From: Planctomycetaceae bacterium
Lineage (GTDB): Bacteria; Planctomycetota; Phycisphaerae; SM23-33
Assembly: GCA_039680605.1 (NCBI GenBank)
Contig: JBDKTA010000067.1
Span: 62,001-126,000 of the forward strand
Length of the DNA stretch: 64,000 bases
Reading direction: 5' to 3'
The position numbers and the translations under genes are program-made. Below the pieces are notes generated by a model, which did no database searches, was not told the origin of the DNA, and saw only the letters and a program-made list of their open reading frames with translations. Positions 7,101 through 40,584 of this stretch are shown here, piece by piece (the stretch's first letter is position 1; each line of letters begins with the position of its first letter).

Positions 7101-7310
7101 CGTAATGGCCATCTTGTACTGACCGCGGTCAAAGAGCCCGCTGGCGGCCATCAACTGCTTCATTGCCGCGTCGGACTTGGCCCCTTCGACGGGAGCGGGC
7201 TTGGCGTCCGTTTCCTGTGCCGTCGCCGCCGCGGCCGACGCTATCAGCACTGCCGCCGCCAAGGCGGAAAACATACCGGTCCATCTGCTCGCAAAGGAAT
7301 GCTTGGTCAT
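4134..7310 (-). CDS. large periplasmic tetratricopeptide-repeat protein
   Basis: 1058 residues. The ATG at 7310 is chosen over upstream in-frame starts because it gives a clean signal peptide (MTKHSFASRW... through AAAATAQ, about residues 1-33) and has GGGAG ten bases upstream. Essentially the whole mature protein is TPR repeats, about two dozen, of the type seen in YbgF/CpoB and BamD (for example FDRGQYKMAITDYETFLAKY). It is the first gene of the operon with exbB, exbD and the TonB-like gene, so it is likely a periplasmic scaffold for that energised complex. No enzyme motif is visible. Confidence 0.87.
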   Translation of the reverse strand: MTKHSFASRWTGMFSALAAAVLIASAAAATAQETDAKPAPVEGAKSDAAMKQLMAASGLFDRGQYKMAITDYETFLAKYPTHEKASAARYGLAVCHYRLKPPAYAEAAKALNELVKDKKFSQRDEALAVLGHCLLATKQNDQALATFDDLLENHPKSKHAELAALNRAQVLFLLERPKDSLAACEAFIKNYGSSSHRGAAEYFMACSQSALKDYAGSEKTLAKFVSDNKSSSYAQDATLLLGQAMEYQNKLDGAAEQYRNFLKIAPDPRKGEGYYSLGLALYKAGKFAEAVTELSTAVSKYGSDSFAPAARLQLGLAQLGAGQTGEARKTLDQVVANDPQRARKASYWIAQCDMTEKKHAAAREALIKLAAMTPPPENLEAILFDQALCAMELGQYELAAKEFGAFADKHSAHAQAGDAMYRQAFCLHKLTQFAASNTLCEKILKGPDSPVTAATTELSAENLFLMSKHADSAKLFEKLLPGATGARQQRLALRLGQCAFLAGDYKKAAQILAPIAADAAAAKDENLREAAFYLGDAQIQLQQYPAAAKSLDSYIASGGSLKQEATFKLGLSYSRAGNTDKAEKTLSTLIDQPLGSPWVARALLAYGQLAYQKLKQSDKAAGALAKVLDPKAKAPVDVLPAAMFLLGWIDFDAKKYDAAAERFGKLVAEYPKDALAADAAMQQGICAKEAGKIDQAATLLKTFVSAYGSSPRLNEAKFLLAECLAKSNKHAEAVEIFAALADKKQSVSDVVLYNLAWSYRAVKDNAKAIAAYQQLLAKFRNSKLVSPASTELAELLCLDKKYSEAAGLAEKVLADRQADAKTKAVAQYRLGLCYSEMSEPSKCAKAFGEFLKNYPDNELVPAAMYQAGIACTAAGELDKAEEHYAALIKKFESDKLVAVARLKLGEVQATNGNYSASAATYQEFLDKHKGNEYGYLARFGVGWAMENQKKYDDARTWYTAVIEAHNGETAARAQFQIGECYFAQAKYNEAARELLKVDIVYAYPQWSGKALYETGRAFEYLKQYDDARAQYTMCIEKYKDQDVAALAKKRLENLPGAN

Positions 7311-7417
7311 CGCGTCTGACTCCCTGTCATGTTTTTGCGTCCTGCCGCCGGCGCAACAGGCCACTGCACAATCGCGCACTGTCACAGGTATGCCGCCGAT
7401 CCACGGCGGGAACCCTG

Positions 7418-7445
7418 ATTGTATACTTCAACACGCCATCTGCAA
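7418..7445 (-). promoter_or_regulatory. candidate sigma-70 promoter for the TPR-exbBD operon
   Basis: On the minus strand TTGCAG (7445-7440) is separated by 16 bases from TACAAT (7423-7418), about 110 bases upstream of the ATG at 7310, in the gap after the convergently ordered phosphoesterase gene. Placement and match are reasonable; no experimental support. Confidence 0.35.
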
Positions 7446-7491
7446 GCGCGGGTTGCGGTTGTTGCGCAAAGCCTCAAAGAGGACAGGCCGC

Positions 7492-9024
7492 TTACTTCAG
7501 CGCCGTCACGTCGACCTTCTTGAACTCCGCTTTGCCGCCCTCGGCGAACAGCGTCACCGCCGCCGGGTTGGTCACGCTGACGGCTTTGGGTTTGGCCATG
7601 CGAATGCGGTTGTTGGCCCGCAAGGTCATCAGCCCCCCGCCGATGGTCACCTGCAACCTGACCGTTCCGGCGTCTGACGGCAGCAGCACGAACGGGATCG
7701 GCGCACCGCCGGCCACGAGCGACTGACCGGTGAAGACGACCTCAACCGGCGAAGACGCGCCGAACCGCAACCCCACGCGCTTGGCCGTGCCCGGAGCGAA
7801 CTCGGCGACCACATTCACGCCCTGCGACGACCCGGCGTCCAGCGTCCTGGTGCCGCCATCGAGTGAGACCGCCGCGGCCGAGAGCGTCTTGTCCGGCGTG
7901 CCTTTGGGCACGATCAGGTCCTTCCAGTTCCAGCTCGCGCTGAGGCCGCAGAGCTTGCCGTGGTAATTCGGCCCGCCCTTGCCGCCGTTGCAGTAGAAGA
8001 CCACGTCGATAGCGTCCTGGGTGACCACGCAGAGATTGCCGCTGCCGCTGGTCTCGGGGTTGACGGTCGTGACGGCCGCAACGCCGGCGTAGTCGTAAAA
8101 CGCGTGGCGATGGTTGTGCCCGCCGAAGGCCTGCGCCACCTTGTGCCTGGCGATCACGTCGAAGTATTCCTTGCACCCCGAAGGAAAATGAACCAGCAGG
8201 ATCGTGCGCGTGCCCGGTTTGACGGCCGACAGATCCTTGTCCAGCCACGCCGCCGCGATCGGCGGGGCCGAGCCCTCGACGTGTTCCTTGATGTCAGGGT
8301 CCCACCAGTCGATCGACGCGAAGTGTACCCCGGCGTAGTCGAACGACCAGCGAATCGGACCAAGGTACTTCGTGAACCCGCCCGCCCCGGCCAGCGGACC
8401 GCTGCCGCGCTCAACCTGCTTGACCATGTCGTGATTGCCCGGCGTGAAGAACATCGGCACGGGGAACTCCTGCCCGATCTTCTTGAGGCCGGTGAACATT
8501 GACTCGGCATTGTCCGGGCCGGCGTAGCCCATGTCGCCGGTGTTGAAACAGAACTTCAGCAGGCCCCCCAGCTCTTTCACGCGCGGGGCAATGTTCTTGT
8601 ACGCCCAGCCGCCGCCGTGGTCGTCGGACATGTGCAGGAAGGCAAACGGCAGCGACTGCTTGTCCTCGCGCAGGGCGAAGTCCACGCGCGTCGCGTCGGC
8701 GAGTTGGTCCAGCCGCGCCCACCACTGCCCGCTCGGCCACATGCCGCTGGGCCAGCTTACCGACACCACTCTCGCGCCGGCGTAGGTCAAGACGCGGTCG
8801 GGCGCGATCGTGATGCTGTAGGCTCCGTCGTCGCCGGTGACGGCAAAGCCGACCCCGTCCGTGACCCGCACGCCGGACAGCCCCTTCTCGCCGTCGTCGC
8901 GTTTGCCGTTGGCGTTGGCGTCCAGGAAGACGACGCCCTTGACCACTGCCGGCGCCTCGCCCCGCGCAACGGACCAAACCATCAGGCACGACAGCACAAC
9001 GATACACGCATTCTTGATCATCAT
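7492..9024 (-). CDS. exported calcineurin-like metallophosphoesterase with SdrD B-like N-terminal domain
   Basis: 510 residues from the ATG at 9024, which has an AGGCGAG ribosome site and begins a signal peptide (MMIKNACIVVLSCLMVWSVA). Residues about 25-110 form a Cna-B/SdrD-like domain (VFLDANANGKRDDGEKG). The catalytic domain carries the metallophosphatase motifs in order: MSDDH (DxH), GDMGY (GDxxY), GNHD, LVHFP and GGHNH. A C-terminal beta domain follows. The architecture matches exported planctomycete phosphoesterases of unknown substrate. It is the only gene in its transcription unit as far as can be seen. Confidence 0.88.
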   Translation of the reverse strand: MMIKNACIVVLSCLMVWSVARGEAPAVVKGVVFLDANANGKRDDGEKGLSGVRVTDGVGFAVTGDDGAYSITIAPDRVLTYAGARVVSVSWPSGMWPSGQWWARLDQLADATRVDFALREDKQSLPFAFLHMSDDHGGGWAYKNIAPRVKELGGLLKFCFNTGDMGYAGPDNAESMFTGLKKIGQEFPVPMFFTPGNHDMVKQVERGSGPLAGAGGFTKYLGPIRWSFDYAGVHFASIDWWDPDIKEHVEGSAPPIAAAWLDKDLSAVKPGTRTILLVHFPSGCKEYFDVIARHKVAQAFGGHNHRHAFYDYAGVAAVTTVNPETSGSGNLCVVTQDAIDVVFYCNGGKGGPNYHGKLCGLSASWNWKDLIVPKGTPDKTLSAAAVSLDGGTRTLDAGSSQGVNVVAEFAPGTAKRVGLRFGASSPVEVVFTGQSLVAGGAPIPFVLLPSDAGTVRLQVTIGGGLMTLRANNRIRMAKPKAVSVTNPAAVTLFAEGGKAEFKKVDVTALK

Positions 9025-29643: not shown

Positions 29644-29880
29644 CCCCGACGCCCAAAGAGAAGGCCCGGCAGCTTGTTAATCCAGATTGCTCGACGGACA
29701 TGTCGCGCTGGCAGCCCTGAAGCGATAAATGCAGCTTGGGGCCGTCTCGACTTGCCAAGGGCGGAACTTCGGTCACGATCCATCCCCGTATCAAGTCACA
29801 GACTGGCTTGCCAAGGCGTAGTTCGCCGCTGCTGAGATGCCAAACAGATGCCCGGTTCCGCAAAGAACGCTACGCCGTGG
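29644..29880. other. gene-free stretch left of the integrated element
   Basis: No gene or known RNA recognised. CTTGCCAAGGCGTAGTTCGCC (29809 region, shorter related word GACTTGCCAAGGGCGGAACT near 29750) hints at another degraded repeat. Confidence 0.4.
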
Positions 29881-29920
29881 CCCAGTCTTCGTTCGCCATG
29901 AGCGGCGAACGAAGACTGGG
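29881..29920. terminator. perfect 17-bp hairpin, probable displaced tRNA-Val terminator
   Basis: CCCAGTCTTCGTTCGCC (29881-29897), a 6-base loop, and its exact complement (29904-29920). The last four bases are the first four of the att repeat, so before integration this hairpin lay directly at the tRNA-Val 3' end. No T-run follows, so processing signal or repeat are alternatives. Confidence 0.5.
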
Positions 29921-29936
29921 CGATACTGGACTCGAA
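29917..29936. other. attL: left attachment site
   Basis: TGGGCGATACTGGACTCGAA, identical to 39059-39078 and diverging on both sides. It is the orphaned fragment of the tRNA-Val 3' end. Confidence 0.9.
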
Positions 29937-30047
29937 ATAATCGCGAATTCGCCGGGAAACTCGCAGGTTCGCGCTTCATCGAGGCCAGAATCGCGGCCAC
30001 AGTCTGCGCCGATCGGGTCAAACGGGGCGGTTCTCGCCCCTGCCACC

Positions 30048-30215
30048 TTGCCGCATGAAGGCGACGCCCGGCTGCACGCCCTGGCGGACCTGCTGGCCAG
30101 TCTGGACGCAGAGCAAAGGCAGGCGATGATCAGCAGCCTGCCGGCGGCAAGCCGCGCCGCCATCGCCCGCCTGCTCGTCGAGCGTCTGGCCGGCGAAGAA
30201 GGACGGGCGGTATGA
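30048..30215 (+). CDS. small helical protein of the element, start uncertain
   Basis: About 55 residues if started at the TTG at 30048; the frame is open further left across the att site, where it would be chromosomal. The sequence (LHALADLLASLDAEQRQAMI, ARLLVERLAGEEG) is strongly helical. Its TGA overlaps the next ATG. No family recognised; no good ribosome site. Confidence 0.4.
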   Translation: MPHEGDARLHALADLLASLDAEQRQAMISSLPAASRAAIARLLVERLAGEEGRAV

Positions 30216-30415
30216 TGCCGGCCGGCAACGCCACAGGACGCCCAGGAGCGGCGAACGGTTCCGGGGCGGGGTGGACCGCCCGCCCGCACGTGCCCCAAGC
30301 GGCAGAAGCCAACGCAGAGCGTACAAGGCCGGGCACAGCGCCCGGCAAGACAACGCCCCGGACAGGGGCAATACCATCGCCCGGCCGAGACGGGCAGAAA
30401 GAGACAGAAGCATGA
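30212..30415 (+). CDS. small disordered protein of the element
   Basis: 67 residues, Gly/Ala/Pro/Arg/Thr-rich, apparently unstructured. Evidence for coding is its ATGA overlap with the preceding and following frames, suggesting a translationally coupled chain. It could equally be a chance frame in GC-rich DNA. Confidence 0.35.
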   Translation: MMPAGNATGRPGAANGSGAGWTARPHVPQAAEANAERTRPGTAPGKTTPRTGAIPSPGRDGQKETEA

Positions 30416-30594
30416 GCAAGAAGCAAGCAACGTCAGCGAGTACATTCGTGAGCAGAGTAATGGGGCTCCCGCGCGACAGCCGGGACCGGGTTATTGCGGC
30501 GGTCCGCCGCGACGCGGAATCGCGCGGCCTGACTCTCGATCGCGCGAGGCGTCTTCTGAAGCGCGGCCAGCAGCAGCCGGCGGCGGTTGCATGA
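30412..30594 (+). CDS. small basic helical protein of the element
   Basis: 60 residues from the ATG at 30412, which overlaps the previous TGA. STFVSRVMGLPRDSRDRVIA then DRARRLLKRG gives a basic helical protein, possibly nucleic-acid binding. It ends on the first TGATAGCAC motif. No family recognised. Confidence 0.5.
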   Translation: MSKKQATSASTFVSRVMGLPRDSRDRVIAAVRRDAESRGLTLDRARRLLKRGQQQPAAVA

Positions 30595-30712
30595 TAGCAC
30601 GGTGACAGTGCCCCACAGGAGCGCCGGCCAAAGTCTGGCCGGCGAAGTCTGCGAGGCGTCCCGGCCGTGTTGCAGCGCGGCCGGGCGCGAGTTTGAAAGC
30701 GAGCGTGAGACG

Positions 30713-31264
30713 ATGGCGGGAAGGATCGACAAGTTTCTGAAAGAGCGGCTGCAAGCGGCCGGCCAGTGGCAGGCGTTCCAGCAGCGGCGCGACGAACTGA
30801 AGGCGCAAGGCTACAACGCCGGCGACGCCCGGACGGCCGCCCTGGCGGAAGTCATGCCCAAGGCCGGCAGCGGCGCCGACGCCGGCGACACCGGGGGCGA
30901 TGGCGCCGACGTTGCGGCCGATGGACCCCGCGGCGGCAGCCTGCCCCTTGCCCCTGCCGCACTGGCCGGCAAGATCGGCAACGAGACCGATATCGCCCGT
31001 TGGGTGGCCCGCAACATCGACAACCCGGCCGCCAGTGCGGAAGAATGCCCCGATGCCTTCGCCTGGACCTTGCTCCGCATGTGTCGCGAGAATGCCGCCT
31101 TCGCCCTGATGTTCGTCAAAGACATCTGGACAAAGCTGCTGGTCGCCCAGGCCAAGCAAGGCGACGCCGGCGAGACTGACGGGGAAATCGACGGAACGCC
31201 GACGCTCAAGCTGATCGAGCGGATACGGGCGATTCGCGACCATGCCGACCCCGCCCAGGCGTGA
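30713..31264 (+). CDS. hypothetical protein of the element
   Basis: 183 residues from the ATG at 30713. An N-terminal helical part (GRIDKFLKERLQAAGQWQAF), a Gly/Asp/Ala spacer (about 45-75) and a C-terminal helical part (WTLLRMCRENAAFALMFVKD, then LIERIRAIRDHADP). No family recognised; small-terminase or regulatory roles are possible but unsupported. Its stop lies in the second TGATAGCAC motif. Confidence 0.65.
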   Translation: MAGRIDKFLKERLQAAGQWQAFQQRRDELKAQGYNAGDARTAALAEVMPKAGSGADAGDTGGDGADVAADGPRGGSLPLAPAALAGKIGNETDIARWVARNIDNPAASAEECPDAFAWTLLRMCRENAAFALMFVKDIWTKLLVAQAKQGDAGETDGEIDGTPTLKLIERIRAIRDHADPAQA

Positions 31265-31330
31265 TAGCACCGCCCGCACTGGCCGGCACGTCGAGCACTG
31301 GGGCAGCGCGGGGGAACGTGATAGCACGGC

Positions 31331-31395
31331 AAGGGACTCAAAAAAGGAAACGGGACTCCCAGGCCGCCAGAAATCTTTACCACACCCCCACCCCG
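31331..31395 (+). repeat. left direct repeat flanking the trypsin-TPR gene
   Basis: About 65 bases, roughly 80% identical to 33290-33352 with three small gaps: both contain AAGGGACTC, GGAAACGGGACTCCC and ATCTTTACCAC/TCTTTACCAC in the same order and orientation. Confidence 0.75.
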
Positions 31396-31445
31396 TTTTG
31401 CGACCGGGGACCCAAGGTATCTCGCCCCCCGCGTGTGTGCACAAA

Positions 31446-33149
31446 TCATTGGCCTGCAAGGCGGACTCTTGCCAAATACTTCTCCACCATGGGGGCAATC
31501 GCGCCTGCAGGCTCTAGGCGGAGGTACTGCTCGTAGGCTTCAATGGCCTCGGCATTGCGATTCAGTTTCTCACAGGAAGCCCCGAGCCGGAAGTAGGCTC
31601 CAGGATAATTCGGGGCGATGGCAAGGGCTTGTCTGCAAGCTTCAATGGCCTCGGCATGCCGGTCCATTTCGCTGTAGGCGCGCGCCATGATCACATAGGC
31701 TCGATTGTCGCCTGGGTCAATGGCGATGCCCTTTTTGAAGAACTCAATGGCTTGGGAGTATTGCTTCAGATCAGTGTAGACAACTCCTATGACCCTGTAG
31801 GACAGCGCATAATTCGGATCGATGGCGATAGCCTTCTTGCAGGCTTCAATGGCATCTCTATGGCATTTCATCTTCGACCATGCGTCGCCCATCCAGCTAT
31901 ATGCCTGAGCCATGTCGGGCTTGATAGCGATGGCCTGCTTGTAGGCTTCGATGGCATCGGCGTGGCGGTTGAGGGTGCTGCAGGCCAAGCCCATGTTGAA
32001 GTGAGCCGCAGCGTAGTTTGGTTTTAGATCAATGGCGACCTGGTAATGTTGGAGCGCGATGTCGTGATTGCCAATCGCCGCATGCAGTTGCCCCAAAGCG
32101 TACCACACAACCGGATTGTCTCTCTGCTTCTCACGGAGCGATGTGAGTATGCTCGTGGCTGTGCCCCAGTCCTTCTTCGCTATGGCCGCCCAAGCTTTGT
32201 CCAGTTCTTCGGTCTCGGCGCTGTCGAGGCGGCGGCCTCCTGCACTGGTAAGGGTCTGAACCTTACCTTGCTTGCGCATCAGCGCCGAGACACCGGAGAC
32301 GGGGACGGCGAAGTTGAGATTCTGGCCGCCACCCAAGTAGGCCGTTGTGACGCCGACAATTTCGCCGCCGGCGTTGAGCAGTGGCCCGCCGCTGGAGCCG
32401 GGGCTTATCGGGGCAGTTACCTGGATGGCCGGCATGCCAGCCTTGATTTCCCGGTGGCCGCTCACCATACCGCTGCTGAAGGTATTCTCCAGCCCTTGCG
32501 GGTTGCCGATGGCGAAGACGGCCGCACCAACCTTAGGCAAGCCCCCTTTGGAAAGCGCGAGGCAGGGATACCCGCTGCCGGAAACTTTGAGCAGAGCCAA
32601 GTCGCCGTCGGGATCGGTGGCAACCACGCCGTCGACAAACAGCGTGGCCCCGCTGCTGAGGCGCACGGCGGCGAATTCCGCGCCCTTTATGACGTGGAAG
32701 TTCGTGACGATCAGGCCGCCGGCATCGACGAAGAAGCCGGACCCAAGGCCGAGAGGCTTGAGATCCTTGTCCCGCACGACGATGTAGACCACGGCGGGCG
32801 AGGCCTTCTCGAACAGTTGCTCAGGCGTGAGATCGGGCGCCTTACCCCGTGCGGCATCCGCTACCGCGGCTTGCCCTTGCGATTGTTTCGCCTCAGCGGC
32901 CGTCTTCGGTGCCGCCGACACTTGGGGCGCGGGCTTGCCTGTGCCAAGAAGGGCGACGGTCACCACAAGGCCCAGGGCAAGACAGACAAACCCGGATATG
33001 CCAAAGAGCCGAAGCATGCGTCGCGGTCTGCGCCGCTGGATCGGGACCATCGTGACGCGCTTGCAAAGGGGACAAGTGTCTCTCTCGCCTGCGAGGGATT
33101 CAGGGCTTTCGAGAATTGCGCCGCACCTGTCGCACTCGTAACGGATCAT
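31446..33149 (-). CDS. membrane-anchored trypsin-like (S1C) protease with zinc ribbon and TPRs
   Basis: 567 residues. An N-terminal zinc ribbon (CDRCGAI...CPLCKRV, about 6-31), one membrane helix (about 47-69), a linker, a DegP-like trypsin domain (about 108-300) with His152 (TNFHVI), Asp183 (DGDLALLKV) and Ser253 (PGSSGGPL), then six TPRs (about 335-560). There is no PDZ domain. AAAGGGTG precedes the ATG. It is the only gene on this strand in the element and lies between direct repeats, and its base composition looks less GC-rich than its neighbours. Trypsin-TPR combinations occur in stress and conflict systems; its role as element cargo is inference. Confidence 0.88.
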   Translation of the reverse strand: MIRYECDRCGAILESPESLAGERDTCPLCKRVTMVPIQRRRPRRMLRLFGISGFVCLALGLVVTVALLGTGKPAPQVSAAPKTAAEAKQSQGQAAVADAARGKAPDLTPEQLFEKASPAVVYIVVRDKDLKPLGLGSGFFVDAGGLIVTNFHVIKGAEFAAVRLSSGATLFVDGVVATDPDGDLALLKVSGSGYPCLALSKGGLPKVGAAVFAIGNPQGLENTFSSGMVSGHREIKAGMPAIQVTAPISPGSSGGPLLNAGGEIVGVTTAYLGGGQNLNFAVPVSGVSALMRKQGKVQTLTSAGGRRLDSAETEELDKAWAAIAKKDWGTATSILTSLREKQRDNPVVWYALGQLHAAIGNHDIALQHYQVAIDLKPNYAAAHFNMGLACSTLNRHADAIEAYKQAIAIKPDMAQAYSWMGDAWSKMKCHRDAIEACKKAIAIDPNYALSYRVIGVVYTDLKQYSQAIEFFKKGIAIDPGDNRAYVIMARAYSEMDRHAEAIEACRQALAIAPNYPGAYFRLGASCEKLNRNAEAIEAYEQYLRLEPAGAIAPMVEKYLARVRLAGQ

Positions 33150-33289
33150 CGTCGCACCCTTTCAAACAAATGAATCTACCCGCGCATCAGACCAGCCGAA
33201 CCCCGCCGGCTGCCAATATGGTAATCGACCAGTGCGGATACGCAAGCTTAAAGCCGATGACGCCCAGCCTGGCCGGCGACCTTGGGACG

Positions 33290-33352
33290 AAGGGACTCCG
33301 AAGGAAACGGGACTCCCGCGCCGTGCAGAATCTTTACCACGCCCCCGCCCGG
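33290..33352 (+). repeat. right direct repeat flanking the trypsin-TPR gene
   Basis: Counterpart of 31331-31395. The gap 33150-33452 otherwise holds only the protease gene's upstream region; no gene is seen in it. Confidence 0.75.
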
Positions 33353-33452
33353 CGCGGGAGAAGGGACGTTAAGTTACCTAGTCTACGGCGAATGGGTAAT
33401 TTTCACAACATGACTCTTGCGGCCAGCGGTTGTCTGTCGTAGGCTGTGGGGC

Positions 33453-34313
33453 ATGGATGGCACTGGGACATTGGCGAAGGGAATCGACGCTCTCTGGAAT
33501 GTCGTCAATGAGTTTGGGGCTAGAGCTCGCGCCAATAGGGAACTGGTTGAAGAGGCGGTGCGCTGCTTCTTGGCGGCCGAAACTGTCAGGCATCGCGCGG
33601 CGAGTTCTGCAACAGGCTACCCTTGCGGGGATGATGAGGATGCAGTCTTCGAAGTGCTGACTCCCGGCGAGGTCCGAAGCATGGCTATGCACGATGGCGC
33701 GATCTATCGCCGCCTGATGAAAGCCAGCGAATCCGATGAGCCGTCATGCGATGAGATGATAACGTATCTTGTTCGCCTGACTGATCTGGTTGTCGACACG
33801 GATAAGGATCGCCGCGGACGCCAATCAAGGCAATCGCTTGCACCCAAGCTAGACGGGCGAGACGAAGTGATTTTGCATCTACTCATTTTTCCCGATGACT
33901 TGGCTGGCATACGTCAGGACATGGGCACGAAGGGTAGTCACAGAGCGATAGAGTACCTTCATGCGGTCCGAAAGTTTCTTCCGCTTCCCGCCGACGTTGC
34001 CGAGGCGGAAGCCACTGCCATGCGGCCCGCCCGTCAGACTGGCCAGCACTGCAAGAAGGTCTCGGTGCCTTCCACTTCGCAGGCTACACCGCCACCGCCC
34101 CCGCCTCCACCTGCAGAAGGCCAGCCAAACCAGAAGTGGTCTCGTATCTACAGCATGGAAGAGGCGGCCGAAGCTTTGCGGAGTTCAACCGATAAGATAT
34201 GGGACCACCTCAAAAAGTACCCATCTTCAGGTTGGCACATAAACCGCGAGACACATCGTTTTGACCTGAACGACGGGTTATTCCTTGACCTTGAACCGGC
34301 CGGCCATACCTAA
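33453..34313 (+). CDS. hypothetical protein with C-terminal HTH-like segment
   Basis: 286 residues from the ATG at 33453 (GTGGGG upstream). The N-terminal two thirds are mixed helical, no family recognised. A poly-proline hinge (about 212-222) leads to a C-terminal domain with YSMEEAAEALRSSTDKIWDH, which resembles a MerR/excisionase-type winged helix. Possibly a DNA-binding accessory of the element. Less GC-rich than the chromosome around it. Confidence 0.65.
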   Translation: MDGTGTLAKGIDALWNVVNEFGARARANRELVEEAVRCFLAAETVRHRAASSATGYPCGDDEDAVFEVLTPGEVRSMAMHDGAIYRRLMKASESDEPSCDEMITYLVRLTDLVVDTDKDRRGRQSRQSLAPKLDGRDEVILHLLIFPDDLAGIRQDMGTKGSHRAIEYLHAVRKFLPLPADVAEAEATAMRPARQTGQHCKKVSVPSTSQATPPPPPPPPAEGQPNQKWSRIYSMEEAAEALRSSTDKIWDHLKKYPSSGWHINRETHRFDLNDGLFLDLEPAGHT

Positions 34314-34497
34314 GCCGCTTTCTCCACGCCATTTTCTCGCCGTAACTGGCGGCAACTCACAGGAACTCACCGCAACTCGCGACCTGCCCTCTGGCAGACA
34401 GCAGAAGCCACTCCCACAATGCCACGCATGACCTATCCGCGATGGACGCGGCGGGCAAAGGTTTTCTTAAAGCGGCTTGGCCGCAAAGGTGGCAACG
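34314..34497. other. gap with short direct repeats before the AlpA-like gene
   Basis: GGCAACTCAC, GGAACTCACC and GCAACTCGCG follow one another at about 34351-34382, and GCGGC-TTG-GCCGC forms a small hairpin at about 34472-34484, just before the next ribosome site. These could be binding sites for the HTH protein. Confidence 0.4.
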
Positions 34498-34740
34498 ATG
34501 ATTCGTTCAGAAAAATGCAGTTGCGACAGCAAGGATGAGGCGAAGGAAGGGGCTCTTCTGATCGGAGCGGAAGTCGTCGCTTCGATGTTGGACTGCTCGC
34601 CGAGACACATCCGGCGGCTGGTGGATGCGGGCGCCTTCCCCCGCCCGGTGAAGCTGGGCACAAAACTGGTGCGCTGGCCGCGCCGTCAAATCGAGGACTT
34701 CATTGCCGGCGGCTGCCGTGCGACGGGGAAGGCGGTGTAG
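34498..34740 (+). CDS. AlpA/excisionase-like helix-turn-helix protein
   Basis: 80 residues from the ATG at 34498, with AAAGGTGG five bases upstream. The core VVASMLDCSPRHIRRLVDAG then FPRPVKLGTKLVRWPRRQIE is the MerR-like HTH_17/AlpA fold used by excisionases and prophage regulators. It lies two bases before the DUF3987 gene, so it may control element excision or replication. Confidence 0.85.
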   Translation: MIRSEKCSCDSKDEAKEGALLIGAEVVASMLDCSPRHIRRLVDAGAFPRPVKLGTKLVRWPRRQIEDFIAGGCRATGKAV

Positions 34741-34742
34741 CA

Positions 34743-37235
34743 ATGGTTGCCACAATAAAAGTGGCCGCTCGCCAAAGCGGCCACAATTCGAGCCTTCCTG
34801 TGGGTCGGGCTCCTGTGTCAGGGCTCAACGTACTTCAGCGAATATGCCAGAGTCAACGGGAATTGGAGAATCCTCCCCCGCCTCCGCTGGAATCGGAGAC
34901 CTCTCCCCCGCCTCCAGTTGAACCACCTAGCCGGCCGGGTGAGCTATCACCAGCAGAACGCGGCCGGGCGGCCGGGATTCTCCTGCTGTGCGACGCGATG
35001 CTTCGAGCCGATGTTTGCGGTCACGACGATCTTCTGAACCTGGCCAAGAACATGGCCCGTGACTACGTGCCCCCGACAGCCTGTCAGTGGTTCATGCCCC
35101 CGGCGATTCACGATGCCGGCGAGGTCGATATGGCTGGCTGGGTCGCGACTGAAAACGCGCCGTCTGATTCATGCCGGAAGTCGCTCCTGGACAGCGGGTA
35201 CGTCGCCTGCCAACATCGAGGGCGAGCAGTCTACATGCCGGCGGTCCAGTATGGTGAATGCGTGACTGCCGGCTGGCGAGGCGAATGGCTGCTTTTCGGC
35301 AAAGAGGCGTTGACCTTCACCAGTCCCGATGAGGCTAAGCAATTCTGGGCGGCCGTGATTCACGTTGCCGAGAATGCCGCGGCCGCGCTGGCGCCACACG
35401 TCTTCGACTATTGGCGCGTTGGGTTCACGCTGCAGAATGAGCGGCAACTGCTGAACCGCATAGCCGGCATTGAAAGCAAGTTGGCCGGCAGCACTGACGC
35501 AAAAGCGGTTCGTGATGCTATCAGCGACTTCGACGCCCTTCTGAGGGAAGCGGATCAGCAGGCAGACAACGAAGAAATCGTTGCCTGGTATGCCGGCCGC
35601 GACTCCGACGAAGATACTCCGTACTGGCGCGACTGCGACCGCTTCGGCCAAGAGTTGCAGGCAATCAAAGATGAGCGAAAGCAGGCGGTCCGCAAGCTGC
35701 TCGATCAGGAAAAAGCACAGGAAGAAGCCCATATGAAGGAACTATTGGGCGGGACGAATGCGGTTCTTCGTGGCGCTGTTCAATCAGACAGCGGGGAGTC
35801 GGCGCCGTCACCACTGGCCGGCCAGTCTGCGGAGTCCATTAAAGGCCAGATCGAAAAGGCGATGGCCCCTATCCTGGCCGGCGTCAGCGATGCCCAGGTG
35901 CTTGACGTTATGTGCGGACTCGCAGACTGTCTGCGCGGGGCCGCTGACCGCGAACGCGCCAGCGGTCGACAGTGGCGGCCTTTCCCCCTCGACGCCCTGC
36001 CCCGCCGGATTGGTGGCTTCGTCCAGGCGGTGGCCGAAGCGCACAGCGTTGATCCGGTCTTTGTGGTCCTGCCTGTGCTGGCCACAGTCGCGGCGGCAAT
36101 GGGCAATGCCTGGCGGCTGCGGATCAAGGATGACTTCGACGTTCCCCCGGTGCTGTGGTGTTTTCTTGTCGCGCGAACGGGCACCAATAAGTCGGGCCCG
36201 TTTGCGGTGGCCGTAGGACCAATGTGGCAAGTGCCGCCAATGCCCAGTGCCGGCGACGCAATGCTTTCTGTTCGGCAAGAGCAGTACATCATTGACGACG
36301 CGACGAGCGAAGCGGTTCTCGCGCGGCTGGGCAAGTGTCCGCGCGGCCTTCTGCTGGCCGGCGACGAACTCGCTGGCTGGCTTCAATCCTTCGACGCATA
36401 CCGCAAAGGCGCCGGCGGGGATCAGCAGAAGTGGATCAGAATGTGGAACGCGAAACCTATCCGCGTGGACCGCAAAACTACCGATGAGCGGAACATGATC
36501 CCGGCGCCAGCGGTCAGCATTGCAGGATCTATTCAGCCGGAACTGCTGAGCAAAGCAGCGGACGCAGAGAAGCTGGCCAGTGGGTTCTTTCCTCGAGCAC
36601 TGGCAGCCATGCCCCCGGAGCAAAAGCGGCGATGGTCAAACGTCGGGATCAGCGAACAGCAAGCCGCATTCTGGAGGAAGTTGATAGACCGCCTGCGGAC
36701 GACGCCCTTCGATTCCTTGGAAACCGACACAGGCCAGTATCTGCCGAAGATCGTTACTCTCTCGCCCGAAGCAGACGCGGCCTGGGTCCAGTGGTATGAG
36801 GAAGTCGCCGAACGCCTGCACCACTTGACCGGGACGGAGCGTGCTATCACGGCCAAAGCTGACGTGCAGGCTGCGAGGCTGGCGTTCGTACTCTATGGCA
36901 TGGCCTGCGCCCTGGACGAGTACCCCGCTGGTTGTCACATGCCCGGGCCGATCATGGCCGCGGGCGTCCGCCTGGCGGAGTGGTTCCTTGACGAGACACT
37001 TCGGGTCTTTGAGACGACATGCGGCCGCGCCCAAGGGGAGCGGGTCCCGTCTCTCTTGAGTCTCGTCCAAAGGCGAGGCGGTAAGGCGACGCCACGCGAC
37101 ATCCAGCGAGCCGATTCACGGAGCTACCCCAGCGCCGAAGCCGCACGGGTCGCCTTGCAAGACCTCGCCGACGCCGGCCATGGTTCATTCGACGGCCGGG
37201 TGTTTGTCGTCAAGCAAGGGAAGGGGAAGCCTTGA
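34743..37235 (+). CDS. DUF3987-type primase/helicase-like replication protein
   Basis: 830 residues. The N-terminal 400 are unfamiliar helical sequence. The DUF3987 domain (about 415-800) carries a P-loop ARTGTNKSGP (about 477-486) and Walker B-like RGLLLAGDELAGW. Proteins of this family are the replication ATPases of many integrative elements and satellites. It is followed directly by the iteron-like cluster, which supports a replication role. The start two bases after the HTH gene stop implies coupling. Confidence 0.82.
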   Translation: MVATIKVAARQSGHNSSLPVGRAPVSGLNVLQRICQSQRELENPPPPPLESETSPPPPVEPPSRPGELSPAERGRAAGILLLCDAMLRADVCGHDDLLNLAKNMARDYVPPTACQWFMPPAIHDAGEVDMAGWVATENAPSDSCRKSLLDSGYVACQHRGRAVYMPAVQYGECVTAGWRGEWLLFGKEALTFTSPDEAKQFWAAVIHVAENAAAALAPHVFDYWRVGFTLQNERQLLNRIAGIESKLAGSTDAKAVRDAISDFDALLREADQQADNEEIVAWYAGRDSDEDTPYWRDCDRFGQELQAIKDERKQAVRKLLDQEKAQEEAHMKELLGGTNAVLRGAVQSDSGESAPSPLAGQSAESIKGQIEKAMAPILAGVSDAQVLDVMCGLADCLRGAADRERASGRQWRPFPLDALPRRIGGFVQAVAEAHSVDPVFVVLPVLATVAAAMGNAWRLRIKDDFDVPPVLWCFLVARTGTNKSGPFAVAVGPMWQVPPMPSAGDAMLSVRQEQYIIDDATSEAVLARLGKCPRGLLLAGDELAGWLQSFDAYRKGAGGDQQKWIRMWNAKPIRVDRKTTDERNMIPAPAVSIAGSIQPELLSKAADAEKLASGFFPRALAAMPPEQKRRWSNVGISEQQAAFWRKLIDRLRTTPFDSLETDTGQYLPKIVTLSPEADAAWVQWYEEVAERLHHLTGTERAITAKADVQAARLAFVLYGMACALDEYPAGCHMPGPIMAAGVRLAEWFLDETLRVFETTCGRAQGERVPSLLSLVQRRGGKATPRDIQRADSRSYPSAEAARVALQDLADAGHGSFDGRVFVVKQGKGKP

Positions 37236-37238
37236 TGC

Positions 37239-37417
37239 TGTCGGATTTGTCGGGCATGTCGGACTGTCGGGCGCGTCTTGTACTGCTGCTCAAGAGACAA
37301 GAGCGCCCGACAACTGCCCGACAAGTAACGGAAGAAAGAGTAAATGTGTCCGACAAATGCCCGACAAACTTGGTTTATATGTCACGTATGACAGTCCGAC
37401 AGTCCGACAACCCGACA
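37239..37417. other. iteron-like cluster, candidate replication origin of the element
   Basis: Four TGTCGG copies (37239, 37248, 37257, 37265) are followed by seven CCGACA copies (37307, 37318, 37350, 37361, 37396, 37404, 37412), spaced 8-11 bases within groups. The copies invert in the middle, so the region can also fold. Frames drawn through it are repetitive and unconvincing as genes. Confidence 0.6.
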
Positions 37418-37500
37418 CTTTGCCCCCAAGTGGCCGGTGGGTACTTCCCCCGGCTGGCCGGTCCCCTCGCGCGTGCGCGAAAAAAATCTTGAGTCACTAC

Positions 37501-37530
37501 TTGACAATTAGCAAGTATCGGTTATGATAC
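37501..37530 (+). promoter_or_regulatory. sigma-70 promoter with overlapping operator for the XRE gene
   Basis: TTGACA (37501-37506), 16-base spacer, TATGAT (37523-37528). The palindrome GTATC-GGTTAT-GATAC (37515-37530) covers the -10, and ACTTG/CAAGT (37499/37512) covers the -35, fitting autorepression. The expected start of transcription is at about 37535, the ATG at 37536. Confidence 0.65.
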
Positions 37531-37535
37531 CTACG

Positions 37536-37742
37536 ATGGCGATTGACGATGACATTCGGAAAGCACTGGCGGCAAGCGGCCGAAGCCGCTACGCCATTGC
37601 CAAAGAGAGCGGGATCCTCGAGAGTCAGTTGTCTCGGTTCCTGCACGGCGAGCGCGGCCTGAACGTCGCGAACCTCCAACGCCTGGCCCGTGTGCTCGGC
37701 CTGGAGATCATCGTCCGCCAGAAGAACAGAAGGGAGTCTTAA
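37536..37742 (+). CDS. XRE-family helix-turn-helix regulator
   Basis: 68 residues. The HTH spans RSRYAIAKESGILESQLSRF and NVANLQRLARVLGLEI. The earlier in-frame ATG at 37524 lies inside the -10 box and cannot be in the transcript, so the start is 37536, making the mRNA leaderless or nearly so. It is followed one base later by the integrase, so it probably governs integration and its own promoter. Confidence 0.87.
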   Translation: MAIDDDIRKALAASGRSRYAIAKESGILESQLSRFLHGERGLNVANLQRLARVLGLEIIVRQKNRRES

Positions 37743-37743
37743 C

Positions 37744-39099
37744 GTGGCCAGCGTATCCACAACCCCCAGCGGCGCGAAGCAAATCAGGCTCGGTCCCAAC
37801 GAGTGCCCGACAGTGCCGGCGCCCAAGCGCCCGCGTATCGGCGTGGGCAAGGTGAACTCGCGGGCGGCCGAAAGCATGTGCTCGCACGTCGAGGCACTTT
37901 GCAGGGCGAAGCGATCCGGCCAGCCGGTGCCCGACGCAACGGCGGCATGGACGGCGGACCTGTCCGGCAAGTTGCGGCGCCAGCTTGAAGGGCTCGATCT
38001 GCTCGAACCTCGCGAGCGGCGCACCTGTCCCGCCCTGGGCGAGTGGCTGCAAAGCTACATCGACGGCCGCGGCGACGTGAAGGAATCAACCGGCACGGTC
38101 TACGGCCACACCAAGCGCTGCCTGATTAACTTCTTCGGGGAAGGCCGGCGGCTGGACACGATCACGCCCGGCGACGCCGACGCTTTCCGGGTTCACCTTG
38201 CCACCAGCGACGATGAAACCGACCGGGAAGCCCTGGCCGATAACACGGTCCGCCGACGCATGGGCATTGCCAAGCAGTTCTTCCGGGCGGCACAGCGCAA
38301 GCGGCTGATCGGTGACAATCCATTCGACGGGCAGGCAACGGTCGTGCGCGAGAATGCCAAGCGGTTCTATTACGTGACCGAGACAGAGGCGCAGGCGGTG
38401 CTGGCGGCCTGCCCGGATGCCCAGTGGAAGCTGATCTTCGCCCTGGCCCGCTATGGCGGCCTGCGCTGCCCCTCTGAAGTGCTGAAGCTCAAGTGGGTGG
38501 ACATTGACTGGGAACATGATCGGTTCACAGTCCACAGCGACAAGACGGAGCACCATGCGGACGGCGGTATCCGCCAAGTGCCGATCTTCCCGGAAATCCT
38601 GCCGCACCTGCGCGACGTGTTTGAACAGGCGGCCGAAGGCACGGAGTACGTTATCACCCGCTATCGCGACCCCAAGCAAAACCTGCGCACGCAGTTGACG
38701 AAGATCATCAAGCGGGCGGGCGTGACGCCCTGGGGCAAGCTGTTCCAGAACCTTCGCAGCACCCGCGAGACAGAGCTTGCCGAGACGTACCCGGTGCAGA
38801 CCGTCTGCCGGTGGATCGGCAACACCCCCAAGATTGCCATGCGGCATTACCTTCAGACCACCGAAGAACACTGGACCCGGGCGGCCGGCAAGGCGAAGCA
38901 AGGCGAGGGAGAAAATCGCGGCCAAAATCGCGGCCAGCCAGTGCATTCCACAGACGGGCAGGAAGGGACACAGCGGCAGACGGAAGAAGAAAACCTCGAT
39001 ATTTCGGCTGTAAAACTAGGTGAGACCCCAACTGACCTCTACGGTCCAAATCAACCAGTGGGCGATACTGGACTCGAACCAGTGACCTTGCGGGTGTGA
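37744..39099 (+). CDS. int: tyrosine recombinase/integrase
   Basis: 451 residues from the GTG at 37744, with GGGAG eight bases upstream and one base after the XRE stop. A SAM-like core-binding domain (about 95-190) precedes the catalytic domain: Arg in ARYGGLRCPSEVLKLKW, then NLRSTRETELAE with the second Arg, then WIGNTPKIAMRHYLQ with the nucleophile Tyr. The two usual His positions are replaced (N in NLR, N in IGN), a pattern I know from planctomycete integrases. The last residues, GDTGLEPVTLRV, are read from the tRNA-Val gene on the opposite strand, so integration completes the integrase frame. Confidence 0.92.
   Translation: MASVSTTPSGAKQIRLGPNECPTVPAPKRPRIGVGKVNSRAAESMCSHVEALCRAKRSGQPVPDATAAWTADLSGKLRRQLEGLDLLEPRERRTCPALGEWLQSYIDGRGDVKESTGTVYGHTKRCLINFFGEGRRLDTITPGDADAFRVHLATSDDETDREALADNTVRRRMGIAKQFFRAAQRKRLIGDNPFDGQATVVRENAKRFYYVTETEAQAVLAACPDAQWKLIFALARYGGLRCPSEVLKLKWVDIDWEHDRFTVHSDKTEHHADGGIRQVPIFPEILPHLRDVFEQAAEGTEYVITRYRDPKQNLRTQLTKIIKRAGVTPWGKLFQNLRSTRETELAETYPVQTVCRWIGNTPKIAMRHYLQTTEEHWTRAAGKAKQGEGENRGQNRGQPVHSTDGQEGTQRQTEEENLDISAVKLGETPTDLYGPNQPVGDTGLEPVTLRV
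39059..39078. other. attR: right attachment site, within tRNA-Val
   Basis: TGGGCGATACTGGACTCGAA, the tRNA 3' end from discriminator base through T-stem to T-loop; the usual att location for tyrosine recombinases. Confidence 0.9.
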
Positions 39100-39132
39100 T
39101 CCGCACGCTCTAACCAACTGAGCTAATCGCCC
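39059..39132 (-). tRNA. tRNA-Val(CAC)
   Basis: 74 bases fold into a complete cloverleaf: acceptor GGGCGAT/ATCGCCC with discriminator A, D-stem GCTC/GAGC, anticodon stem TGCGG/CCGCA with loop ATCACAC (anticodon CAC), T-stem ACTGG/CCAGT with loop TTCGAGT. CCA is not encoded. The integrated element keeps the gene intact by supplying the same 3' end. Confidence 0.95.
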
Positions 39133-39190
39133 GTGGCACAGGCTTTCCAGCCTGTGAACCATTGACACAGCCTGGAAAGGCTGTGCCACG
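39133..39190. repeat. hairpin repeat (CACAGGCTTTCCAG family) at tRNA-Val
   Basis: Arms of 24 bases starting GTGGCACAGGCTTTCCAGCC and ending GGAAAGGCTGTGCCAC pair with two mismatches around a short loop. A second member lies at 51345-51400 beside tRNA-Phe. Confidence 0.8.
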
Positions 39191-39198
39191 GCTCGGAA

Positions 39199-40377
39199 TT
39201 ATACCCGCTCGCTTCGTCGTTGCAACTCATTCAGCGTGTCGGTGAAATCTTTTGGCCAGGGGGCGGTGAACTCCATCGGCTCGCGCGTGCGCGGGTGCGT
39301 GAAGGCGATCGTGTGCGCGTGCAACGCCTGACGCGTGATCAGCGGGCCGTCGGCTACTTCCGCGTGGCCATCGAGCTGGCTCATGTACAGCGGTCCGCCG
39401 CCGTACATCCGGTCGCCGACGATCGGGTGGCCGATGTAACTCATATGCACGCGGAGCTGATGCGTGCGCCCGGTCTGAGGGTACAACTCCACCAGCGTGA
39501 ACGGCATTGTGCCGCCGGGGCCGGCGGCGAGGCGCTCGAGCACTTTGTAGCGCGTGACAGCAGGTTTGATCGTCACCGGCAGCGGGCGGCCCGTCAGGCG
39601 GTGGACGGCGTACTTCTCGCGGATGCGGGCGTGCTTGCCGATGGGAGCGTCGATGAGGTCTTCGTTCATCGACATGCGGCCGTGGACGATCGCGGTGTAC
39701 GTCTTGTGTACCTTGCGGTGCTCGAACTGCCACCCCAGCCGCCACAGGGCCTGCTCGCTCTTGGCCACGAGCATGATGCCCGTGGTGTCGCGGTCGAGGC
39801 GGTGGACGATGCCCGGGCGGAACGCCTCGCCGCTGGTGGGCAGCTCAGAAATGTCGCGCCAGTTCTTCTGGAAGTAATACGCCAGGGCGTTGACCAGCGT
39901 GCCCGTCCAGTTGCCCCGCGCGGGGTGAACGATGAGACCGGACTGCTTGTTGACGGCCATCAGGTCGTCGTCTTCATAGATGACGTCAAGCGGGATGGGC
40001 TCGGGGGGAATCTCGCGGCGTTTGACGATCGGCAGCATCATATCGATCACGTCGCCGCTGCGGAGGGTGTAGCGCGGCTTGACGATCTTGTCGTTGACGG
40101 TGACGTTGCCCTCGCGGATGTAGCCCTGCAGGCTGGTGCGGGAGTGGTCGCGCCCGAGTCGGCCGGCGAGATACTTGTCCAGCCGCCGGTCGCTCTTGGG
40201 GCGGCGGATGAGGATCTGGAGATGCTCGAGGCCGTCTTCGTCGGCGGCCAGCGTAGTCTGGACGCCCTCGACGTCGTCGTCGGCAAACTCGGCGGTCTGC
40301 TCGTCGGCCTGTTCGTCGGGAGGCAGGTCCTGCTCTTCTGTAATGATGTCTTCCGGGTCAGGCATGTGGTTCATCAT
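39199..40377 (-). CDS. rluD: 23S rRNA pseudouridine synthase, RluD type
   Basis: 392 residues if started at 40377; ATGs at 40374 and 40365 are alternatives and none has a clear ribosome site. An acidic N-terminal extension (about 1-50), an S4 RNA-binding domain (about 55-115), then the RluA/RluD catalytic domain with IVHRLDRDTTGIMLVAK (catalytic Asp) and YPQTGRTHQLRVHM. Modifies uridines of helix 69 in 23S rRNA. The frame upstream of 40377 is repeat sequence and should not be included. Confidence 0.88.
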   Translation of the reverse strand: MMNHMPDPEDIITEEQDLPPDEQADEQTAEFADDDVEGVQTTLAADEDGLEHLQILIRRPKSDRRLDKYLAGRLGRDHSRTSLQGYIREGNVTVNDKIVKPRYTLRSGDVIDMMLPIVKRREIPPEPIPLDVIYEDDDLMAVNKQSGLIVHPARGNWTGTLVNALAYYFQKNWRDISELPTSGEAFRPGIVHRLDRDTTGIMLVAKSEQALWRLGWQFEHRKVHKTYTAIVHGRMSMNEDLIDAPIGKHARIREKYAVHRLTGRPLPVTIKPAVTRYKVLERLAAGPGGTMPFTLVELYPQTGRTHQLRVHMSYIGHPIVGDRMYGGGPLYMSQLDGHAEVADGPLITRQALHAHTIAFTHPRTREPMEFTAPWPKDFTDTLNELQRRSERV

Positions 40378-40403
40378 ACCATAGTCTGTAACGATTACTA
40401 ATG

Positions 40404-40484
40404 AGCCGCTGAGGTCGCTGAGGACGCAGAGGAAGGAGCTGTTTTGCCCTCTTTCGGCCTCAGCGTCCTCAGCGACCTCAGCGG
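40404..40484. repeat. GCTGAGGTCGCTGAGGACGC inverted repeat
   Basis: Left arm from 40404 (GAGCCGCTGAGGTCGCTGAG) and right arm ending at about 40484 (CTCAGCGACCTCAGCGGC) are inverted copies with one or two mismatches over about 27 bases. Built of 9-base words like the CAGAG hairpins. Confidence 0.8.
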
Positions 40485-40507
40485 CTATCCTTGGCCGCAG
40501 GCGGGGA

Positions 40508-40584
40508 GCATGGGCGAGACGCCCATGCCACACAGACGGAGCATGGGCGAGACGCCCATGCTACTCACGGGCGAGACGCCCGTG
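40508..40584. repeat. three AGA-loop mini-hairpins
   Basis: 40508-40528 and 40541-40561 are GCATGGGCG-AGA-CGCCCATGC; 40566-40584 is CACGGGCG-AGA-CGCCCGTG. Stems change in a compensated way while the loop stays AGA. Related hairpins are at 43617-43699. Together with 40404-40484 they fill the gap between rluD and the corrinoid gene. Confidence 0.85.

Follow-up and report, generated by a model that had tools for sequence, protein, structure and literature searches.

Where does an integrase gene end when the attachment site of its element lies inside the gene? The question is raised by a 64-kb stretch (64,000 nucleotides, hereafter the window) of contig JBDKTA010000067.1 from a Planctomycetaceae bacterium, in which a mobile element of 9,142 bp lies between two attachment (att) repeats in a tRNA-Val(CAC) gene. 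An earlier note on the window had named identical 20-bp att repeats and an integrase at the tRNA, and both were confirmed: the 20-mer TGGGCGATACTGGACTCGAA occurs in exactly two copies in the window, and a PF00589 protein reads into tRNA-Val(CAC). Overlooked at the time was that the left end of the element, as judged from the DNA, holds the coding sequence for the C-terminus which the integrase lacks. The features at the two ends are the following.

29917-29936: left att core, 20 bp, an exact match to 39059-39078
29937-30215, plus strand: detached integrase tail, 92 codons and a stop, in frame upon rejoining of attP, the attachment site of the circular form (attP frame; leave-one-out profile E 5.9e-5)
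37744-39099, plus strand: tyrosine integrase in its integrated-state form, 451 amino acids, GTG start (Pfam PF00589, E 2.8e-10; PHROG phrog_1)
39059-39078: right att core, within the 3' part of tRNA-Val
39058-39132, minus strand: tRNA-Val(CAC), the target gene, which remains intact (ARAGORN and Rfam)

The integrase open reading frame (ORF) of the integrated state crosses the att core and terminates six codons later at 39099, and its C-terminus is GDTGLEPVTLRV, the last residues of which are antisense tRNA. As the ORF reads through the core into the tRNA, attP lies within the integrase gene. When attP is rejoined (39078 joined to 29937), the frame remains open for 92 further codons up to the stop at 30215 and yields a protein of 537 instead of 451 amino acids, and the peptide encoded across the core in this long form is GDTGLEIIANSPGNSQVR in place of the tRNA-encoded end. 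The location of attP and the in-frame tail are established anatomy of the locus as sequenced, and every integration should cut the conserved tail from the integrase while every excision should restore it. The protein belongs to the tyrosine recombinases on the strength of PF00589, its catalytic residues and Foldseek matches; R241, K267, R338, W357 and Y369 are invariant in an alignment with 20 relatives. The box-II His of these enzymes is replaced by Gln at residue 335 of the window integrase and in most aligned relatives, His being found in few. The integrase had no match in plasmid or phage collections, and a sequence search of the PDB returned none either.

A profile search of GTDB genomes was employed to find relatives of the integrase. 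It yielded 552, of which the best 80 were read, and nearly all of these 80 are titled Planctomycetota. Carriers of the family include two named isolates, Aeoliella straminimaris (L112) and Lacipirellula limnantheis (L150). The integrase ORF enters an antisense tRNA in 63 of the 80 loci, ending inside it in 61 and running past it in two (L136 and L139); among the other 17, three stop just short of the tRNA, 12 are without a tRNA and two are cut by contig ends. The tRNAs met in this way include those for Val, Glu, Leu, Met, Asn, Lys, Gln, Ile, Tyr, Arg and Ala. The integrases do not share one frame with respect to the tRNA: the 61 that end in a tRNA use all three T-arm frames (52, 4 and 5 loci). 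With the T-arm frame not fixed, the in-frame tail is no by-product of the tRNA sequence.

Both ends of the element were found in 12 relatives (4,975-10,806 bp; tRNA-Val, Ile, Met, Glu and Leu), which makes 13 resolved elements with the window. Beyond the core, the integrase frame is open for 41-72 amino acids in all 12 relatives and for 92 codons in the window, which is a narrow spread, whereas the other two frames are open for 0-54 and 5-169 codons across the 13 elements. Of the 13 tails, 12 were recognised by leave-one-out profiles (E from 0.005 down to 4e-16, with 5.9e-5 for the window). Each of these matches was in the integrase frame; the five other frames gave none. L129 and L048, two resolved elements with a rarer T-arm frame, still have the tail in frame. 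A further relative, L135, likewise carries both repeats, but its own integrase lies in a different frame from the repeat. The tails share a segment of the type DLAAVVxAWPxLPExxRAAILxxV; Pfam holds no family for the tail, with MgtE_N at E 0.001 below its cut-off.

The joined gene also exists uncut. The integrase and the tail form one unbroken ORF in the IMG/VR contigs L162, L170, L172, L184, L279 and L281. In L181, the reading frame of the integrase continues over the joined contig ends and into the tail; the 123-bp terminal repeat of this contig indicates a circle of 7,314 bp. Partial upstream integrases that continue into the tail of the next element were seen in L114 and L135, and these junctions fit tandem insertions, as expected. 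The position of attP, the in-frame tail, its conservation and the natural fusions in relatives can thus be read directly from the nucleotides. They bear on the suggestion of a small independent gene in the tail segment, such as one for a directionality factor with a start codon of its own, whose frame agrees with that of the integrase by chance. The tail segment does form its own ORF at the left end of the element, and one TTG at 30048, the sole possible in-frame start ahead of the predicted helices of the window tail, could initiate translation in the integrated state. However, an in-frame ATG, GTG or TTG ahead of the helices is missing from most tails, all 13 resolved elements keep the frame open through the core, and the uncut fusions exist. 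A separate gene was rejected on start codons and reading frame and is considered very improbable.

An AlphaFold model of the natural fusion L162 (mean predicted local distance difference test score, pLDDT, 83.7) contains an N-terminal three-stranded sheet plus helix, a SAM-like domain and the catalytic domain, followed by a disordered linker (residues 389-459, pLDDT <50) and two confident helices (463-474 and 477-493). The model predicts the tail to be a helical hairpin on a disordered linker. The best solved matches in Foldseek include XerA, the Tn1549 integrase and the lambda integrase. The latter two have the same core-binding and catalytic fold and a core with arm-like repeats on both sides; the window family differs from them by the extra C-terminal hairpin, attP within int and the box-II Gln for His. 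Its own arm-like repeats are located as follows.

38915-38936, plus strand: putative P arm site ATCGCGGCCAAAATCGCGGCCA, two copies 12 bp apart, in integrase linker codons
29978-29999, plus strand: putative P' arm site ATCGAGGCCAGAATCGCGGCCA, in tail codons

A paired direct repeat with 12-bp spacing was detected on both sides of the core in 17 of 18 attPs, with a score that none of the 60 codon shuffles reached, approximately 90-165 bp before the core (linker codons) and 36-77 bp after it (tail codons). The mean repeat score was 17.9 for an element's own pairs across the core, 8.9 for pairs between elements and 7.5 for codon shuffles; the own pair beats every cross pair in 9 of 18, because some elements share a motif. 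The paired repeats probably serve as arm sites for the integrase, as in an attP of the lambda type. Since they occupy tail codons, the beginning of the tail is under constraint at the DNA level; the helices lie beyond. One alternative is that the integrase makes no use of the tail at all: attP would sit at the 3' end of the gene as the arm sites need int nearby, and coding-compatible DNA repeats would keep the frame open. In line with it, the arm repeats occupy linker and tail codons, the repeats account for the GGAxSGA stretch of the tails, and two relatives (L044 and L045) have a stop ahead of the core. Nevertheless, the conserved helices follow the arm repeats in the sequence, match the profile in the integrase frame only and are confidently folded in the model. 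They also appear to be under purifying selection in the one tested pair, L181 and L184, for which the ratio of nonsynonymous to synonymous substitution rates (dN/dS) was lowest in the integrase body (0.15) and 0.22 in the tail helices, compared with 0.41 in the tail and 0.56 in the linker. A tail without a role in the integrase is therefore regarded as quite unlikely.

Several observations weigh against an explanation in which the tail is a working part of the integrase. Part of the tail conservation stems from the DNA repeats encoded in the tail, the selection test covers a single pair, and the tail of L048 fails its leave-one-out profile (E 0.9). L044 and L045, both from one genome (G035), have the integrase stop approximately 110 nt before the core, and this early stop suggests that some lineages may move without a fused tail. 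The integrase stops just before the tRNA in L123, L135 and L151, no tRNA is present at the integrase end in 12 of the 80 loci, and the integrase frame of L109 is out of step with the adjacent tail. Decay of the copies, or lineages with no need of the tail, may account for the exceptional loci. The integrase regions of L044 and L045 are 96.5% identical; L045 ends at tRNA-Arg(CCG), and in L044 the tail comes after a tRNA-like stretch.

The explanation that we favour, and hold to be likely with some reservation, is a small integrative, probably self-replicating element with attP inside its own integrase gene, in which the long and short integrase forms set the direction of recombination. On the circle, the gene would encode a long integrase consisting of arm-binding, core-binding and catalytic domains, an attP-bearing disordered linker and the C-terminal helical hairpin. 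Recombination with the tRNA would sever the gene downstream of the catalytic domain. The catalytic part would keep one end and gain a few tRNA-encoded residues as its new C-terminus (the short integrase), and the hairpin-coding segment would be moved approximately 9 kb away, without an obvious start. Excision would rebuild the long form. The long form, available from the circle only, would promote integration, and the short form, available from the integrated state only, would either be quiet or excise together with the AlpA-like protein encoded by the element. The integration-driven swap of the C-terminus probably serves directionality control; we infer that both isoforms are made, that the repeats are bound by the integrase and that the tail affects direction. 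The chances are about even that the same holds for a phylum-wide bacterial integrase family with directionality in its gene geometry, the hairpin being lost at integration and regained at excision and the state of the DNA being read as an isoform.

The roles of the two forms could also be reversed if the tail restrains the integrase on the circle, as an inhibitor, a docking site or a degradation signal, and thereby blocks immediate re-integration or favours spread, with the short form being active. The short form has the complete catalytic domain, and the tail is modelled as a separate hairpin on a long flexible linker. Mycobacteriophages with integration-dependent immunity are reported to have attP in a regulatory gene (PMC4557955). 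The conserved part of the tail is, however, a folded hairpin and not a short degron-like C-terminal peptide, and a pure inhibitor gives no reason for a loss exactly at integration. A restraining tail is possible but unlikely. If the long and short forms do behave differently, the recombinase would take its direction from the way in which its own gene is rearranged, and no separate factor would be needed for one direction. The favoured explanation would also account for the tRNA-derived peptide ends of these planctomycete integrases. It would further mean that annotation of integrated copies yields truncated integrases, a point of relevance to the choice of integrases as genetic tools. A hairpin tail beside a tRNA fragment provides a search handle for both ends of such elements.

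Genes that are altered by integration are known from other systems. In the archaeal 'suicidal' integrases (SSV1, pTN3 and pT26-2), attP is inside int and integration splits the gene, often with a tRNA gene as the target as in the window, and this arrangement has been described as exclusively archaeal (PMC8371274). Integration of those elements parts the N-terminal portion from the catalytic domain and leaves pieces described as inactive, whereas here the catalytic domain and the N-terminus stay together and only the tail is exchanged. The hosts differ as well, being archaea in the one case and bacteria in the other, with relatives almost all from the Planctomycetota. Given the description as exclusively archaeal, the present case is a new bacterial variant, and attP inside int would, if this is true, reach from archaea to bacteria. 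Pleolipoviruses likewise have a coding sequence across attP that is complete only on the circle, but the gene in question is distinct from the integrase gene and lies downstream of it, instead of being the integrase's own 3' end (PMC7911831). In the mycobacteriophage BPs, with its integration-dependent immunity, attP is reported to lie within a gene as well and the protein is altered by integration, but this protein is the repressor and not the integrase (PMC4557955). The window element works like these archaeal, pleolipovirus and mycobacteriophage systems and belongs to none of them. A description of a bacterial case of attP inside int was not found in the open-access literature, subscription papers being outside the search. 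The int genes of the streptomycete elements pSAM2 and SLP1 adjoin attP.

The target site was analyzed in relatives. The tRNA-Val(CAC) gene adjoins rluD in 19 of the 29 relative loci fetched. Of these 19, 16 have no detectable integrase on the far side of the tRNA (of which approximately 0.1-1.4 kb was examined, being short in some loci) and three carry a whole or partial integrase there, so that the site is free in many genomes and repeatedly used. In the region corresponding to 39059-40533, an integrase or integrase pieces were found at the same tRNA-Val(CAC) in G033, G027 and G035. Direct repeats, an integrase at the tRNA, an intact tRNA and unoccupied sites in relatives are all present, as is typical of an integrative element in a tRNA gene. 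Together with the almost exclusively planctomycete family, the att repeats and the sites without integrase bear out the claim of the earlier note that this is a complete integrated mobile element of a planctomycete. The remaining features of the element are listed here from left to right.

30212-30415, plus strand: small ORF, 67 amino acids, with an ATG that overlaps the tail stop
30412-30594, plus strand: small ORF, 60 amino acids, with an ATGA overlap with the preceding 67-amino-acid ORF
30713-31264, plus strand: 183-amino-acid protein with no function assigned; 83% identical homologue in the related element G001:C611
31394-33300: cargo cassette, 1.96 kb, with a trypsin-like (Trypsin_2) TPR protein (TPR gene 31446-33149, minus strand; Pfam)
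33417-34313, plus strand: 298-amino-acid protein with no function assigned
34477-34740, plus strand: AlpA/HTH_17 protein, candidate excisionase (Pfam, phrog_66; homologues in 12 of 14 elements compared)
34743-37235, plus strand: DUF3987 replication protein (phrog_2373 DNA helicase; Pfam, PHROGs)
37239-37417: iteron-like cluster, four TGTCGG followed by seven CCGACA (hexamer count)
37524-37742, plus strand: XRE/Cro-type helix-turn-helix regulator, directly upstream of the integrase (Pfam)

The AlpA-like helix-turn-helix protein, the XRE regulator and the DUF3987 protein had each been named before and were each matched by Pfam. The iteron-like cluster held up equally, with 11 copies of CCGACA/TGTCGG against 0.24 expected from the window rate, the densest spot in the 64 kb. 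In the 14 elements compared, the AlpA-like protein is common to 12 and an XRE-like regulator is present in approximately half. The replication protein varies among relatives (DUF3987, DnaB-like, D5/DUF5906 or AAA_25). On the circle, the 67-amino-acid ORF is possibly coupled translationally to the tail. The 298-amino-acid protein matched no family in Pfam, NCBIfam or PHROGs and had no homologue among 60 relatives.

The cargo cassette is bounded by 50-bp direct repeats (31344-31393 and 33301-33350, 82% identical). The related element G001:C611 (L314) lacks the cargo and has the flanks joined at one repeat copy, which marks the trypsin-TPR cargo as a separately gained or lost cassette. PADLOC gave only weak domain-level matches on the cargo. 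Several relatives carry minus-strand cargo as well, with trypsin, TPR, PQQ or lactonase proteins.

The earlier note had left the choice between a satellite and an integrative plasmid. As it had stated, no phage structural or conjugation families were present among the named ORFs (Pfam, NCBIfam, PHROGs), nor were the relaxase or conjugation genes of an integrative and conjugative or mobilisable element. A phage satellite, a question apart from the integrase tail, would agree with the small size, the regulator-primase-integrase layout and the presence of relatives in a viral contig collection; one relative, L157, carries a tape-measure-like protein (7227-8774; PF06791, E 6.6e-12) within a 10-kb family element. 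No packaging or capsid gene was detected among the ORFs of the window element with Pfam and PHROGs, though several small ORFs are without a family; no helper was found, the integrase matched no phage or plasmid, and a comparison of the entire element with the phage collection gave nothing close. The satellite half of the proposal is unsupported and a satellite seems improbable, whereas an integrative, self-replicating element fits better because relatives swap replication proteins and one relative is the 7,314-bp circle.

The genome of the window carries further family integrases, L052 and L053 (contigs C7 and C53), at tRNA-Glu and tRNA-Arg, and at L053 on C53 a second, orphan tail directly follows a tRNA-like sequence. 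These integrases and the orphan tail indicate at least three such elements in this genome. At the left boundary of the window element, a perfect palindrome with 18-bp arms and a 6-nt loop (29880-29921) covers the first five bases of the att core. Similar palindromes were found in contigs C59, C53, C21 and C10 of the same genome, some of them at contig ends.

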